Shown here in pieces: positions 25,519 through 37,202 of a stretch of DNA of 37,643 bases. Origin of the DNA: Bryobacterales bacterium (lineage in GTDB: Bacteria > Acidobacteriota > Terriglobia > Bryobacterales > Bryobacteraceae). The position numbers were made by a program, and so were the translations under genes. The stretch covers positions 295 through 37,937 of the forward strand of contig PMYB01000126.1 of assembly GCA_003170915.1 (NCBI GenBank). The letters run 5' to 3'. Position 1 is the first letter of the stretch. Every line of letters starts with the position of its first letter. The notes beneath the pieces are model-generated. The model saw only the letters and a program-made list of their open reading frames with translations, searched no databases and was not told where the DNA came from.

Positions 25519-26790
25519 TTACTGCTGCACGGCACCGGTACGCTTCTCCCAGCCGTTTTCGAATAGTTTCAGGAAGTTGTTTGGACCGTACGGGTGTTTG
25601 GCCATTGCCTTTTCATCGAATGCAACGCCGATTCCAGGCGCATCGGACGGTTCCAGATAGCCAGCCTGCACCCGGGGGACGCCTTGCATGATCTCATGCA
25701 CCCAGGGCTCCAGGAAGTCGTCGAAACACTCCTGAATCAGAAAATTGGGAATGCTGGCGTTAATGTGCGCGTTGATGGCGGTGTTGTAGGGGCTCTGCGC
25801 CTGGTGGAGCGCGACGAAGGCCTCCGCGGCCTCGGCGATGGCAGCGGCTTTACGGGCCCCACCAATGCCTCCGATGCCCAACGTTTCCGGCTGCACGATA
25901 TCCACCGCACGCCCCGCCAACAACTCCAAGAACTGGCCAAGCCTGGTGAACCGTTCGCCGGTGGCCACCGGAACCTTAATGGACCGCGCCACCTGAAGCG
26001 TGGCTTCTATGTCGGTAGACATCACCGGGGTCTCCAGCCACATCGGCCGGTACTCTTCGAGCTCGTGTCCCACGCGGATGGCCGTGGAGACACTGAACCT
26101 ATCATGCGCTTCGATAAGGAGATCCATGTCGTCGCCCACCGCCTTCCGGACCGCCGCCACAATCGCCAGCGATTTTTTCTCCTCTCCGGCATCGAAGAAC
26201 CGGTAGGTGCTGCCGAACGGGTCGAACTTCAGCGCCGTGTACCCCATGGACTTGACGCGGGCGGCCTCTTCCGCGAAGGCCCCCGGTTCCCTCGGCCCTT
26301 TGTACCAGCCGTTGGCGTAAACCCGAAGAGAAGGGTTCTGCTTGCCACCCAGCAGTTTCCACAGCGGAGCGTTCAGGCTCTTGGCCAGAATGTCCCAACA
26401 CGCAATGGTAATGCCGTTCATGGCAACGTTGTTGCCCAGGAACAGGCCTTTGTACATCTTCTGCCACAACCTCTCCGGGTGAATCGGATCCTCACCGATC
26501 ACGAAACGCTCGAGCTCATGAACCTGAGCCTCGGGAGGTTTGGTTTCCAGGCCACCCGTGGCCTCTCCCCATCCCACCAAGCCGGCGTCCGTGTCGACCT
26601 TGACAAAGACCCAGTTCTTCCATGGGTTCCCCACCACGAAAGTCTTGACCCCCGTAATCTTCATGATTCCCTCGCTTTCGGCGGCTCGGGCGGGCGGCAG
26701 CGCTGCATTCACCACCAATGCCCCAGCGACGTTCCGCATCATTCCGCGCCGTGTAAAGCCGTTAGACTCGCCTTTGAAATCGGATTCCAT
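25519..26790 (-). CDS. Enolase-superfamily dehydratase (mandelate racemase subgroup) with Tat leader
   Basis: 423 residues. A twin-arginine-like leader (GFTRRGMMRNVAGALVV...ARA, to about residue 37) precedes a complete enolase-superfamily protein that begins at M43 (MKITGVKTFVVGN). The capping domain is 43-165 and the barrel follows. Metal ligands are E227 in LLIEAHD, E253 in MWLETP and E279 in TGERF; H229 and H329 are likely acid/base residues. It resembles galactonate- and gluconate-type sugar-acid dehydratases. It is third in an operon, 17 bases after the DapA-family gene. The substrate is not determinable by eye. Confidence 0.85.
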   Translation of the reverse strand: MESDFKGESNGFTRRGMMRNVAGALVVNAALPPARAAESEGIMKITGVKTFVVGNPWKNWVFVKVDTDAGLVGWGEATGGLETKPPEAQVHELERFVIGEDPIHPERLWQKMYKGLFLGNNVAMNGITIACWDILAKSLNAPLWKLLGGKQNPSLRVYANGWYKGPREPGAFAEEAARVKSMGYTALKFDPFGSTYRFFDAGEEKKSLAIVAAVRKAVGDDMDLLIEAHDRFSVSTAIRVGHELEEYRPMWLETPVMSTDIEATLQVARSIKVPVATGERFTRLGQFLELLAGRAVDIVQPETLGIGGIGGARKAAAIAEAAEAFVALHQAQSPYNTAINAHINASIPNFLIQECFDDFLEPWVHEIMQGVPRVQAGYLEPSDAPGIGVAFDEKAMAKHPYGPNNFLKLFENGWEKRTGAVQQ

Positions 26791-26807
26791 GGTATTTCAG
26801 CCGCCTC

Positions 26808-27812
26808 CTAAGCCTTCAGATACGGCTTCATGGCTTCGAAGTTCCAGTCGATCTCGGCGATCTCGTCCGGCTTGAGCTGGGCTTCCGTCTGTTGGCCGTC
26901 GTGCCCCCGGCTCACCATGGTCTTGAAGACGCCGCGCTTTTTCATGATGTACTGCGGCACGCCGCGGAACTGGCGCATCGCGTTGAGCGCCAACAGCAGG
27001 CTGGCAAACGCCGCCCGCGCCTTCTCCTTCTGTCCAGACTGATACAGATCCCAGACGGCCACATATACATCGGTGAACTGAGCCTCCGGCATGTCGCCGT
27101 CTCCGCCAAAACGCATTTCGTAGGTAAGCCCGTAGCCATTGGCGCCGCTGAATACCGCCTTCATCACCGGCTTAGCCTTGATCAACTCCTTCATCCGGTC
27201 GTTTACCGGGTTGACCTCCTCCTTCACGTAACCCAGATTGGGAAACTCCTTGGCCAGATCGATCAGGAATTCGACCGACGGGTCGATCCCCTGAGCCCCA
27301 CCCGAGGTCTGAATAAACACCGGGCGCTTACTCAGCTTGCCCAATGCCCTGTAGTAGGTGCGGTAATCCTCTATCGACTTCGCCTCCATCGGGGGCATGG
27401 CGATGAGGCCATCCGGCTCCAGTTCTTCCGCTTTGCGGGCGAACTCGAGCATCTGCCCGGTATTCGTGGATTGAACGCCGAGCAACAGGGCGGGCTTGCG
27501 CCCCTTGGCCGCTTTGGCGACGACTTCCATCCCGCGCATGCGCTCTTCTTTGTTGATGCCCCCAGGGTAGCCGCTGGCATGTTGTGGCCAAGCCATGCCA
27601 TGAGCGCCCCATTTTTCGAAAACCTCCACTTCGTGGACCAGGTCCTCAAAATCCACGCCGCCGGCCGCCGTGTATGGGGTTGCCAGAATCGGGAAAATGC
27701 CGCGCATGGGCTTGGCTGTCGCGGCTGCGAGCGGCCGCCTGAGGGCCATCGCCGCTCCCGTAACCGCGCCCAGTCCCACCAGCAATTGTCTTCTGTTATA
27801 TCTTGTCGTCAT
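26808..27812 (-). CDS. DapA/NanA-superfamily aldolase-like protein with Tat leader, atypical active site
   Basis: 334 residues. The Tat leader YNRRQLLVGLGAVTGAAMA is followed by a TIM barrel. The Schiff-base lysine is K197 in LGYVKEEVNP. Two other hallmarks are altered: the TTGE loop reads ASGYPGG (79-85), and the usual YNxP tyrosine motif is FIQTSGG (166-172). The protein may still form a Schiff base but with different proton transfer, or act as a lyase or hydratase on another keto acid. It sits between two sugar-acid dehydratase homologues, consistent with cleavage of a 2-keto-3-deoxy sugar acid. Confidence 0.85.
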   Translation of the reverse strand: MTTRYNRRQLLVGLGAVTGAAMALRRPLAAATAKPMRGIFPILATPYTAAGGVDFEDLVHEVEVFEKWGAHGMAWPQHASGYPGGINKEERMRGMEVVAKAAKGRKPALLLGVQSTNTGQMLEFARKAEELEPDGLIAMPPMEAKSIEDYRTYYRALGKLSKRPVFIQTSGGAQGIDPSVEFLIDLAKEFPNLGYVKEEVNPVNDRMKELIKAKPVMKAVFSGANGYGLTYEMRFGGDGDMPEAQFTDVYVAVWDLYQSGQKEKARAAFASLLLALNAMRQFRGVPQYIMKKRGVFKTMVSRGHDGQQTEAQLKPDEIAEIDWNFEAMKPYLKA

Positions 27813-27838
27813 AGCGAGCCTCCTATCGCACCCAGTGA

Positions 27839-29218
27839 TCAGTAGGTGATGCAGTTACACCATTTGCCTTCATCGTCGTAGTGCGGCCACGGTCCGGACC
27901 AGCGGCGCTGCCAGTTCGACGTGCCCGGCATGTCCCATTCCGGCGTCGGATCGAAGTAGCCCGGGAACCGCAGGTGCTCCTTCACTACATCATCGTTGAG
28001 TTCGAGACCTAGCCCCGGTGAGTCTGGTACGTGAATGTAGCCGTCGTCGATGATCGGCTTGTCGCAGCCTTTCACCAGGTCCTGCCACCAGGGCATATCG
28101 GCCGAATGGAATTCCAGCGCCACCAGGTTCGACATGGTGGACGCCACGTGGGTCATCGCCATGGTGCCGATGGGCGATCCGGGGTTATGGATCGCGGTCT
28201 GAATGCCATGAACGGCGGCATAATCGTGGATGCGCTTGATCTCGCGGATGCCTCCCGAGGCCACGAAGTCCGGATGGATAATGTCAACGGCGTTGTTATC
28301 CAGCATGTCCCGGAAACCCTCTTCGAGTCCGAAGGCCTGCTCGCCCGTGCAGACGGGCGTAGTGGTGTTTTCCTTGATTTCCTTGAATCCCCGCCAATTG
28401 ATCCAGCAGTAGGGGATGAAATCCTCGGCCCAGGCGAGATTGTACGGCTCAAATGCCTTGGCGTAGCGGATGGCGTCTTTTACCGTGAGGTTCCCGAAGT
28501 GGTCCGCCGCCAGCGGCGTGTTCTTGCCAATGGCATCGCGGACAGCGGCGATGAATTCGCACAGATATTCGAGGCCTTTCTGCGTCGCCGCACCGCTGGG
28601 GAAGACTGCGCCGGGCTGGTCCTCCACCAGGCTCGTGTACAGGTCCATCTTGAGGAACTTGAAGCCCAGCGCTTTCCGCTTGGCCACGCGCTCGCCCATC
28701 AGCTTGGGATTATTGGCGCCGGTCGTGTCGCAGTAGATCAATACCTTATCGCGCAGTTTCGGCCCAACCAGCTTCCACACCGGAACGCCGTATACCTTCC
28801 CGGCGATGTCGTGCAGGGCCAGGTCGATGGCGCCGAGGCCGGTATTCCAGAAGTTCTGGCCCGCCGACCACCGGAGGTCGCGCAGAATCCCGCCGATATC
28901 CAGCGGGTCGCGACCCACAAGGTGGGCCTTCAGCATCAAGGCGCTGCCTTTGACGCCGGCCGAAAAGACCTCGCCGAGCCCGTACACGCCCTGGTTCGTG
29001 TCGATGCGGATGATCGGGTAGTCGTAGTACGTCGCCACCGTGCAGGCCCGCATATCGGTAATTTTCAGGCCGCTGGGCGCGGAGTTTCTGTTCAGCGCGG
29101 AGCGCTGATTGGACTGGGCGGCGCCAGTCCCTTGTGTCAGCTTCAAGAGTGATGGCAGAGCGCCCGCGCCCGCGAGTGTGCGGAACAACCTCCGCCTATT
29201 CCATTCGGATGTCTGCAT
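27839..29218 (-). CDS. Enolase-superfamily dehydratase, second type, with Tat leader
   Basis: 459 residues from ATG 29218, preceded by AAGGAT. The Tat-type leader NRRRLFRTLAGAGALPSLL (7-25) precedes the enolase fold. Metal ligands are D239 in LAADHFGNL, E265 in WAEDFIPY and E293 in TGEQAFG; H344 in IHNPGSPIG is a likely catalytic base. It differs clearly from the other dehydratase in the operon (EAHD in place of DHFG), so the two probably act on different epimers or steps. It leads the operon; the DapA-like gene follows after 26 bases. Confidence 0.85.
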   Translation of the reverse strand: MQTSEWNRRRLFRTLAGAGALPSLLKLTQGTGAAQSNQRSALNRNSAPSGLKITDMRACTVATYYDYPIIRIDTNQGVYGLGEVFSAGVKGSALMLKAHLVGRDPLDIGGILRDLRWSAGQNFWNTGLGAIDLALHDIAGKVYGVPVWKLVGPKLRDKVLIYCDTTGANNPKLMGERVAKRKALGFKFLKMDLYTSLVEDQPGAVFPSGAATQKGLEYLCEFIAAVRDAIGKNTPLAADHFGNLTVKDAIRYAKAFEPYNLAWAEDFIPYCWINWRGFKEIKENTTTPVCTGEQAFGLEEGFRDMLDNNAVDIIHPDFVASGGIREIKRIHDYAAVHGIQTAIHNPGSPIGTMAMTHVASTMSNLVALEFHSADMPWWQDLVKGCDKPIIDDGYIHVPDSPGLGLELNDDVVKEHLRFPGYFDPTPEWDMPGTSNWQRRWSGPWPHYDDEGKWCNCITY

Positions 29219-29456
29219 ATCCTTGGCCCTCCCGTAGAGCCTGGCAAGATTACAGTACAACTTCGCAATCCCAGCCGCAATCCCGCGCCGATGTACGGTC
29301 GCGGCAAAGTAGCCGAAAGCCGGCGTCTCTGTTGAATTTGGGCTGGAACTTTCGCCGCCGTGGGCACATTTTGCCCGCTATTCCAAGCCACCCAGGGGGA
29401 ACTCAGCGCCCAGGCAAGGCAGAACGGCCCCGACCGGAATTCATCCCCGAAACTAG

Positions 29457-29774
29457 GGCGTCGATGGTTTGGGTGAGGTCTTCTGTAACGACATGATCAG
29501 CCAGGCGCTGCTGCTCAAGCCCTTCGCGGTAGGCAAGAATCCCCTGGAAATCGACGCGATCCTGGCGTCGATTCGCCGGTTCTCTGTCCAGGGCTCGAGC
29601 AGCGGCGGATACCCGGTCCCGGACGGCTACTTTGCGCCCACGCCCATGTATGACAAGGCCATGATCGGGAATCATGTGCACAGCAAGTACCCGCACCTCG
29701 ACGCACTGGGTGAGCCCATCAACGAACTCGACGAACACACGAGCCCGGTGCAGACGGGACGCGGCCAGAAATAA
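29457..29774 (+). pseudogene. Chimeric fragment with enolase-superfamily N-terminal piece
   Basis: After an in-frame TAG the reading frame gives GVDGLGEVFCNDMISQALLL and PFAVGKNPLEIDAILASIRR, which aligns with GVYGLGEVFSAGVKGSALML...LVGRDPLDIGGILRDLR of the adjacent dehydratase on the opposite strand. From about residue 43 the similarity ends, and an unrelated stretch follows (GGYPVPDGYFAPTPMYDKAM, then NHVHSKYPHLDALGEPINELDEH). The start, metal ligands and barrel are missing. This is a decayed gene or a fusion of two gene remnants, not an intact enzyme. I cannot place the second half. Confidence 0.6.
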
Positions 29775-35006: not shown

Positions 35007-36275
35007 CTACGCCGGGCGCGCCACCTTGCCGTCCCAGAGCATGGTCTTGCCTTGCCGGATCGACAAATCGGCCAGCAGAGCGGGGAGGGTCGAATTGAAG
35101 CCGATTTCGATGTCCGCGGCCGGCCGCTGCCGCGATTTCACGCAATCCAGGAAATTGCGCGCATGCCGTACCGTAGCCGATCCGAACGGGGAATTGGGGT
35201 TATCAGCCATCCCCTTCGGATCCATCGCGTTCTTGTATTCAACCGGCGCAAGCGTGGCGCCCTGCTGAGCGCGCTGCGACGCAATCGGCCGGATCTCATA
35301 CCCGTAGCGGCTCACCAGCAGCATGCCTCGAGTGCCGAAGAAATAGTTGCCGTACAGGTCGCTGTCCGGTTCCATCTTCGTTCTCGGCGGCACCGCATTG
35401 GTGAAGGTGGCCACCCAGTTGTCGAACCTCCACACGATCGAGAAGGTTTCCGGCGTGCGCTCGGGATCGGGGATCTGCCCGATATACTGCCCCACTCCGG
35501 CGGTCACCTGGGGCGTCTTGTGATCCGCGTCCATGTACCACAGCATGACATCCAGCAGGTGAACGCCCCAGTCGGTTACAGTCCCTCCGCCGTAATCGAA
35601 GTAGTTGCGCCAGTTGCTCTGACGGCTCGGCACGTAGTCGTGCCGCGGCGCGGGACCCTGGAACATCTCCCAATCCAGGTCCGCGGGCGGTGGTACCGGT
35701 TTCTCGGGCGGCGGCGTCGTGGGCCCCCATCCTCCACCGCGGTATGTCATCACGCACTGGCCCACCGTGCCGAGGGTGCCGTCGCGCATGATCTTCACGC
35801 AATCCTGAAAATGCTGCCAACTGCGTTGCTGCAATCCTACCTGCACCACGCGGTTGTACTTGCGCGCGGCCTCGATCATCCTCTGTGCCGGCTCAATCGC
35901 GTTCGACACCGGCTTCTCCACGTAGACATCCTTGCCGGCTTCGCACGCCGCAATCATGATGGGGCTGTGCCAGTGGTCCGGCGTTGAGACTAGTACGGCC
36001 TGGATGTCTTTGTTATCCAGTAGCTTCCGATAGTCCCCGTAGGTCGCGATCTTGCCTCCCACCTTGATCGCGAACTGGTCCAGCCGCGATTTGGCCACAT
36101 CACATGCGGCCACGAACTCTACATCGGTATTGTGAACAAATGAACTGTAGTCCTGGTTGCCGCGAGTGCCGGTCCCGATGATCCCCATCTGGACCCGGTC
36201 GTTGGCGCCCAGAACCGAGCGCGAGACCGCCGCCGCAGCCGCCGAAACTCTCAAAAACTCGCGTCTGCTTCCCAT
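35007..36275 (-). CDS. Gfo/Idh/MocA family oxidoreductase with Tat leader
   Basis: 422 residues. The twin-arginine leader is SRREFLRVSAAAAAVSRSVLGA. The Rossmann fold begins at VQMGIIGTGTRG (G-x-G-x-x-G for NAD(P)), followed by VEFVAACDV and the family motif DVYVEKPVSNA (E-K-P). The C-terminal alpha/beta domain has a WGVHLLDVMLWYM helix with a likely catalytic His/Asp. The Tat pathway exports folded, cofactor-loaded proteins, which fits an extracytoplasmic enzyme with tightly bound NAD(P). Together with the DUF1080 protein upstream it suggests 3-keto-sugar chemistry. AAGGCAAGG precedes the ATG. Confidence 0.9.
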   Translation of the reverse strand: MGSRREFLRVSAAAAAVSRSVLGANDRVQMGIIGTGTRGNQDYSSFVHNTDVEFVAACDVAKSRLDQFAIKVGGKIATYGDYRKLLDNKDIQAVLVSTPDHWHSPIMIAACEAGKDVYVEKPVSNAIEPAQRMIEAARKYNRVVQVGLQQRSWQHFQDCVKIMRDGTLGTVGQCVMTYRGGGWGPTTPPPEKPVPPPADLDWEMFQGPAPRHDYVPSRQSNWRNYFDYGGGTVTDWGVHLLDVMLWYMDADHKTPQVTAGVGQYIGQIPDPERTPETFSIVWRFDNWVATFTNAVPPRTKMEPDSDLYGNYFFGTRGMLLVSRYGYEIRPIASQRAQQGATLAPVEYKNAMDPKGMADNPNSPFGSATVRHARNFLDCVKSRQRPAADIEIGFNSTLPALLADLSIRQGKTMLWDGKVARPA

Positions 36276-36446: not shown

Positions 36447-37202
36447 TTACGGCAATTTTTTCACTGCGATGGCACGCCACCGCCAAAAAGCCGCCGGATG
36501 CCAGCGCTCGCCACCATGCACCTCAATAGCCAGAAAGCCGTCCGTCGCGCCGCCGATGGAGTGGTTGGCGGTATCCGTGAAATCATCGACCTGCTGGTCG
36601 TTGAACCACGTGGTGATGTGCGGGATGTCGCCTTCGATGCGCACGTGTACGCGGTTCCATTCGTCGCGCTTCCAGGCTTTCATCCACAGTTCCTCGGCGG
36701 GACCACTGAAGCGGACGTCTTTCAGCGCTTCGCCATAGACGCCACCCATGCTTCCGGTGGTGCCCGGGGGTCCGCCGGGAAGATAGTCCAGCGTCACTTG
36801 ATAGGCTTCGCCGGCCTCGGTGGAGCGAAGGAACAGGCCGCTGTCGCAGCCCCAGTCGGGCTTCACTTCCAAGTACACTTCGACGTTCTTGTACTTGTTG
36901 TCCGTCACCAGAATGCCGCCTTTGCCCGGAGGGTTCTGGTGGCCAACGATGATGCCATCGACCACGTGGAAATCGGGCGTTGTGCCGTGATGGTTGGTTT
37001 TGCTGATGTGCCATCCAGTCAGATCCTTGCCGTTGAAGATGGGGGTGAATCCTTCGGGGATCTGGATGGGCGGTTCCGCGTTGGTGTTTCTTTGCGCGCC
37101 GCCACCTTTCTTCGCGGCGGGCGCCTGCTGGGCCTGAGACGTGAACACCGCGAGCGCGAACGCCGCAATGCACGTCACGGCGATTCCGAGACGTTTTTGC
37201 AT
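36447..37202 (-). CDS. DUF1080 (3-keto-disaccharide hydrolase-like) exported protein
   Basis: 251 residues. The signal peptide is 1-24 (GIAVTCIAAFALAVFTSQAQ). A DUF1080 concanavalin-like beta-sandwich follows: GFTPIFNGKDLTGWH, then VDGIIVGHQNPPGKGGILVTD, YLEVKPDWGCDSGLFLRS, EWNRVHVRIEGDIPHITTWFNDQQVDDF and GFLAIEVHGG. Members of this family hydrolyse or eliminate 3-keto-glycosides made by Gfo/Idh-type dehydrogenases. Such a gene, LKPNW..NSGIFLR-like, is common in Acidobacteria and Planctomycetes. AGGAGGT lies 14 bases before the ATG, longer than usual. The 41-base repeat (copy 2) is just upstream. Confidence 0.87.
   Translation of the reverse strand: MQKRLGIAVTCIAAFALAVFTSQAQQAPAAKKGGGAQRNTNAEPPIQIPEGFTPIFNGKDLTGWHISKTNHHGTTPDFHVVDGIIVGHQNPPGKGGILVTDNKYKNVEVYLEVKPDWGCDSGLFLRSTEAGEAYQVTLDYLPGGPPGTTGSMGGVYGEALKDVRFSGPAEELWMKAWKRDEWNRVHVRIEGDIPHITTWFNDQQVDDFTDTANHSIGGATDGFLAIEVHGGERWHPAAFWRWRAIAVKKLP

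Follow-up and report, generated by a model that had tools for sequence, protein, structure and literature searches.

Within the window, by which we mean the whole 37,643-nucleotide stretch analysed here (C228:295-37937, from a draft genome of 5.06 Mb that is 82% complete), three tightly packed genes lie on the minus strand in the order E1-D2-A3, with gaps of 26 nt between E1 and D2 and 17 nt between D2 and A3. E1 (27839..29218, minus strand; 459 residues; protein MQTSEWNRRRLFRTLAGAGALPSLLKLTQGTGAAQ) encodes a homologue of the MR/MLE enolase-superfamily sugar-acid dehydratases. D2 (26808..27812, minus strand; 334 residues; protein MTTRYNRRQLLVGLGAVTGAAMALRRPLAAA) encodes a DHDPS/NAL-superfamily protein, probably of the L-2-keto-3-deoxyarabinonate (L-KDA) dehydratase type, and A3 (25519..26790, minus strand; 423 residues; protein MESDFKGESNGFTRRGMMRNVAGALVVNAALPPARA) a second enolase-superfamily dehydratase homologue, from the gluconate/galactonate-dehydratase group. 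All three open with a putative Tat leader. The ribosome-binding site of E1, GGGAGGG at 29227..29233, leads us to favour the ATG at 29218 over a TTG at 29260 as its start; D2 is preceded by AGGAGG at 27819..27824, and A3 by AGGAGG at 26804..26809, which overlaps the stop codon of D2 (all on the minus strand). The open reading frames, order, strand and coordinates given in an earlier note on this DNA were all reproduced, and Pfam profiles place E1 and A3 in MR_MLE and D2 in DHDPS. A promoter scan of the operon returned no sigma-70-like site, and a terminator scan returned matches close to chance level. Upstream, the opposite strand carries a two-component system, and an unrelated convergent gene is found 3 nt past the A3 stop. 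The closest named relative at the locus is bog_375 (G064), a Bryobacterales MAG whose proteins are 85% (D2) and 91% (A3) identical to those of the window, which makes the source most likely a soil bacterium of the Bryobacterales (Acidobacteriota).

We assessed the leaders on their motif, hydrophobic stretch and conservation, and the controls by inspection. That of E1 spans 29117..29218 (N-R-R-R-L-F ... G-T-G-A-A, putative cleavage A34|Q35), that of D2 27720..27812 (Y-N-R-R-Q-L-L ... L-A-A-A, A31|T32) and that of A3 26683..26790 (F-T-R-R-G-M-M ... A-R-A, A36|A37), all on the minus strand. They carry an S/T-R-R-x-F-L-type motif and a moderately hydrophobic stretch, which is short in E1 and late-starting in A3. 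When family leaders were compared, the RR was chosen solely by the hydrophobicity downstream, and the remaining positions were left unselected. Among 99 distinct D2-family leaders the RR is fixed in all 99 while the rest of the leader drifts, position -1 is S, T or N in 90, +4 is L in 80, and +3 is mainly F, L, M or W. Across 47 D2-family proteins the top-residue frequency averages 37% in the leader versus 58% in the core, with R7 and R8 at 94%. The same pattern is seen in the E1 family, where RR is present in 34 of 35 leaders and R8/R9 are 93-97% conserved in 30 homologues against a leader mean of 50%; for A3, the RR is retained in G064, G057, G075 and an interrupted copy in G019. A Tat leader, read by eye, is present in all 80 D2 homologues that carry organism names, and these come from Acidobacteriota, Verrucomicrobiota, Planctomycetota, Lentisphaerae, Gemmatimonadota and Hydrogenedentota. 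Among cultured species, Brevifollis gellanilyticus has a D2 homologue. By inspection, no Tat leader was found on the five canonical DapA paralogues of the same genome (0/5), on the ten cytosolic L-KDA-dehydratase-like relatives of D2 (0/10), or on the 23 sister proteins of A3 (0/23). The genome encodes TatC in a single copy (211 bits).

Overall, we believe the leaders are real, because positions on which no selection was made reproduce the Tat consensus, because the RR stays fixed amid drift, and because leaderless relatives serve as controls. The claim that three enzymes of normally cytosolic families each bear a Tat leader is borne out on these grounds, and Tat export of all three is strongly supported by the sequence patterns. 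The leaders might instead be uncleaved anchors, or decayed, leaving the enzymes at the cytoplasmic face or inside, and the short uncharged stretch of E1 (12 residues) and the A3 stretch that begins only past Arg19 could be read in this way. Nonetheless, the RR and its flanking consensus are strongly constrained across phyla, and an A-x-A-like motif follows the hydrophobic stretch in 92 of 99 D2-family and 32 of 34 E1-family leaders, although such motifs are common in Ala-rich leaders. We therefore regard anchoring or decay as very improbable indeed, and export followed, probably, by cleavage at A-x-A as the better reading.

The operon is less of a special case than had been supposed. For 46 of the 51 MR_MLE_C matches in the genome a simple rule scores an RR/RK leader, a few of these calls being doubtful; the 51 include fragments and clear exceptions. 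With 46 of 51 bearing leaders, E1 and A3 simply follow the genome's rule, and the phenomenon of exported enzymes extends through the genome and the phylum, well beyond E1-D2-A3. DapA-type proteins present a different picture, with a leader on only two of seven, the window copy and one other; the base rate for leaders rests on two families, MR_MLE and DapA-type. Twelve related genomes hold between 2 and 114 enolase-superfamily members. On contig C167 about nine enolase-superfamily genes stand nearly head to tail. Since leaders are near-universal on the enolase-superfamily proteins of this genome, shared export need not mean a shared pathway, and two led dehydratases in one operon do not on their own argue for a designed one.

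Both E1 and A3 match PF13378/PF02746, and the catalytic residues of the enolase superfamily are retained by every homologue aligned with either; the operon does indeed hold two different dehydratase homologues, as first suggested. In E1, K190, D239, E265, E293, D317 and H344 are invariant in 30 homologues and would supply the Lys (K190), the metal ligands (D239/E265/E293) and the His-Asp pair (H344-D317) of the MR/MLE dehydratases, roles that we presume from alignment and family knowledge. The invariant residues among aligned homologues of A3 are K188, E227, H229, E253, E279, E302 and H329, which provide the Lys (K188), the ligands (E227/E253/E279) and H329 with the acidic partner E302, with Asp-to-Glu changes. 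The AlphaFold model of E1 has a confident core and a disordered leader, and its closest solved folds are 2qq6, 2gl5 and the ManD/gluconate dehydratases. The best relatives of E1 and A3 are gluconate, galactonate and mannonate dehydratases (NF040790, PRK14017, ManD; 3rcy, 2qq6, 4e4u), many of them solved without an assigned function, with which the two proteins share the fold, the strand-2 Lys, three acidic metal ligands and a His with an acidic partner. They differ from these enzymes in that A3 has Glu at the Asp position of galactonate dehydratase, E1 has no His two residues after the first ligand, and both fall under every curated family cut-off: against NF040790 (D-gluconate/D-galactonate dehydratase, cut-off 750 bits), A3 scores 319 bits and E1 143 bits. 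To our knowledge, the characterised gluconate/galactonate and mannonate dehydratases are cytosolic.

For D2, which matches PF00701 at 48.9 bits, the earlier note proposed a DapA-type aldolase, and here our data lead elsewhere. Q168 is present in 102 of 102 members of the D2 family, and K197 and E199 are fixed wherever the alignment column is filled; in the five canonical DapAs the same three sites are Tyr, Lys and Ala, Ser or Asn. In the L-KDA dehydratase of Azospirillum (A. brasilense; PDB 7C0C, 3FKK), Gln143 replaces the Tyr, Lys171 forms the Schiff base and Glu173 is the base, a residue said in review not to be conserved in other DHDPS/NAL enzymes (PMC9795676). Q168, K197 and E199 of D2 correspond to these three residues, the Glu lying two residues after the Lys. 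The second base, Glu200, is N225 in D2 and variable across the family, and for this reason we file D2 as a sister clade that would work like L-KDA dehydratase rather than as an L-KDA dehydratase proper. The two share the DHDPS/NAL fold, and differ in that they are only about 19% identical, that the characterised enzyme is leaderless, and that invariant W/P/Q and E232 set the D2 family apart. Against solved proteins the D2-family profile places 7c0c (9e-40) and 3fkk (3e-39) at the top and YagE, an aldolase of the KDG type, at 2e-21; a search with D2 as a single sequence, unlike the family profile, does not rank L-KDA dehydratase first. The predicted structure (pLDDT 93) finds 7c0c as its best Foldseek match, with other DHDPS folds close behind. 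In the tree, which contains long branches, the D2 family (100/100) sits beside leaderless Bryobacterales proteins and 3FKK (94/90), and D2, these relatives and 3FKK are joined at 100/99, apart from the canonical DapAs.

An extracellular route in which the dehydratases feed a DapA-type aldolase that yields pyruvate and an aldehyde would draw on the DHDPS-superfamily membership of D2, on its Schiff-base Lys and on the DhaK and DhaL genes directly upstream of E1-D2 in G048. It is nevertheless improbable, for every family member has Gln at the site of the aldolase Tyr, the dehydratase-type Glu is fixed, and profile, fold and tree all favour L-KDA dehydratase. D2 is thus probably not an aldolase but an enzyme of the L-KDA-dehydratase type, to judge by its residues and relatives, and the D2 family is best read as a previously unremarked, Tat-exported sister clade of the cytosolic L-KDA dehydratases that extends over several phyla.

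Whether the three enzymes serve one pathway is a separate question, on which gene neighbourhoods bear. E1 and D2 are adjacent in the window, G038, G085, G019 and G048; the full trio is known only in the window, and G064 has a D2-A3 locus without E1. What recurs in distinct genera is the pair, either E1-D2 or A3 with a DapA-like gene, so that the trio is not conserved as a unit. D2 homologues mostly stand alone: only 7 of 80 loci have an enolase-superfamily gene at a distance of up to 8 kb. A tally of neighbours over these 80 loci showed no partner that is always there; an RR-leader oxidoreductase-like cluster is the most frequent (12 loci). These observations, together with the leaders on 46 of 51 MR_MLE matches and the 38-114 MR_MLE genes in each genome of the A3-clade relatives, would suit a situation in which all three enzymes are exported but act on different extracellular acids, having become neighbours by shuffling in a genome where most enolase-superfamily enzymes are exported. 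Set against it are the tight operon, with a ribosome-binding site that overlaps the D2 stop, and the recurrence of the two pairs in distinct genera, and we consider separate substrates unlikely, if well worth keeping in mind, beside a shared route. Completeness is another matter: within the window the operon has no linked gene for a sugar oxidase, a lactonase, a semialdehyde dehydrogenase or a transporter, and a complete extracytoplasmic pathway is not borne out.

Neighbouring genes fit extracytoplasmic sugar chemistry, the DhaK-DhaL pair of G048 among them, though they single out no substrate. Downstream of D2-A3 in G064, and in the same orientation, come genes for a beta-propeller-like protein, a GH88 protein with a Tat leader and a sugar MFS transporter; next to A3 in G057 and G033 is a gene for a SelA-like protein with a Tat leader. 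About 6 kb from the operon, the window also encodes a Tat-leader Gfo/Idh/MocA oxidoreductase (36275-35007) and, behind a Sec-like leader, a 3-keto-disaccharide hydrolase.

The A3 clade offers a view of how leaders come and go. M43 of A3 (26662..26664, minus strand) had been taken as the start of the cytosolic form, and this holds: nearly all of the 23 leaderless proteins of the sister clade have their first residue opposite M43 in the alignment, or one or two positions away. That the leader was added to a finished protein is plausible; on the tree, gain and loss are equally parsimonious. Six members of the clade are known; the leader is present in the window, G064, G057 and G075, absent from G033, and present in a G019 copy whose gene is interrupted by a TAG. 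The five leader-bearing members form a clade (97/96) with leaderless G033 outside. A single gain in A3 was considered and set aside, as more distant paralogues are led and one loss plus one gain therefore ties with two losses. A DapA-like gene adjoins A3 in all six members. In two genomes this neighbour is D2; in the other four it belongs to a different subfamily, about 30% identical to D2, whose members are included in the alignment in which Q168, K197 and E199 are invariant. Concerted switching of leaders between A3 and this partner was likewise set aside: both are led in the window, G064, G019 and G057 and both leaderless in G033, G075 is discordant (A3 kept its RR and the partner lost it through a short deletion), and the independent events are too few.

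The model that we favour, with moderate confidence, is that sugar acids are dehydrated twice outside the cytoplasm, by E1/A3 and then by D2, with little need for cofactors. Consider an aldonate, or an acid derived from a uronate, outside the inner membrane. The three folded enzymes would be carried across that membrane by the Tat system, and their leaders then probably cut. E1 and A3, which would depend on Mg, would take water off such acids to give 2-keto-3-deoxy acids, from which D2, as a Schiff-base enzyme, would remove a second water without splitting the sugar, leaving an alpha-keto-semialdehyde-like product that would then be imported. These steps would be feasible outside the cytoplasm because they can run without diffusible NAD(P) or ATP. 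The leaders and their selective conservation, the intact catalytic residues and the operon spacing are read directly from sequence; transport, cleavage, activity, the substrates, the reaction order and the single shared pathway we infer, and the pathway as a whole is plausible but incomplete.

This scheme resembles the Weimberg-type oxidative pentose pathway, in which two dehydratases likewise convert a sugar acid to a 2-keto-3-deoxy acid and on to an alpha-keto-semialdehyde; unlike the scheme proposed here, that pathway runs in the cytosol and usually opens with a dehydratase of the Ilv/ED type, and its oxidases and semialdehyde dehydrogenase have no counterparts linked to E1-D2-A3. The glucose-fructose oxidoreductase of Zymomonas, a Tat-exported sugar enzyme of the Gfo/Idh/MocA family, is similar in being a folded member of a normally cytosolic family exported for sugar work, and different in being a redox enzyme with bound NADP and no dehydratase. 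A search of the open-access literature turned up no publication describing Tat export of enolase-superfamily or DHDPS enzymes. The breakdown of sugar acids is usually regarded as cytosolic. More tentatively, and with rather less conviction than the model itself, we suggest that in soil Acidobacteriota and other phyla the whole double-dehydration branch of non-phosphorylative sugar-acid catabolism may have left the cytoplasm. It would draw on the Tat-exported sister clade of L-KDA dehydratases and on a greatly expanded set of Tat-exported enolase-superfamily dehydratases, with leaders gained or lost upon a switch of compartment. If these enzymes do act outside, abundant uncultured soil bacteria would convert sugar acids ahead of uptake, and annotation as 'mandelate racemase' or 'dihydrodipicolinate synthase' would misplace the location of these enzymes and, for D2, the reaction too. 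The D2 family offers a clear contrast, in which led and leaderless sister clades carry identical catalytic residues.

Immediately upstream of E1, the first gene of the operon and a homologue of enolase-superfamily dehydratases, and on the strand opposite to it, lies a remnant of another E1-type gene (29466-29774, plus strand), recognised by its matches to E1-type proteins. The remnant lacks its 5' end and is internally deleted, with residues ~98-150 fused straight to ~435-470 in the numbering of those proteins, and it resembles other E1 paralogues more than E1 itself. Elsewhere in the same genome, about 9.9-28.8 kb on contig C167 (L039 and flanking loci), some nine enolase-superfamily genes stand almost head-to-tail; they are closely similar to one another, nearly all carry a twin-arginine leader (RG in one), and the array is apparently a local tandem expansion.

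In two related genomes, a SelA-like (PLP-fold family) protein with a Tat leader adjoins the orthologue of the third enzyme, A3 (L269, 9723-11402, minus strand; L271, 9982-11256, plus strand). The A3 orthologue of G019 (L268, 7590-8909, plus strand) is broken by a single in-frame TAG, and is either a pseudogene or an assembly error. A D2-family gene with a twin-arginine leader also occurs in a MAG titled Acidimicrobiia (L169), ranking amid Acidobacteriota matches; the MAG may be mislabelled, or the gene transferred.

Within the window, a Gfo/Idh/MocA oxidoreductase with a Tat leader (MGSRREFLRVSAAAAAV; 35007-36275, minus strand) adjoins a 3-keto-disaccharide hydrolase (36447-37202, minus strand) whose leader is Sec-like, and the pair probably constitutes a separate exported 3-keto-glycoside module.
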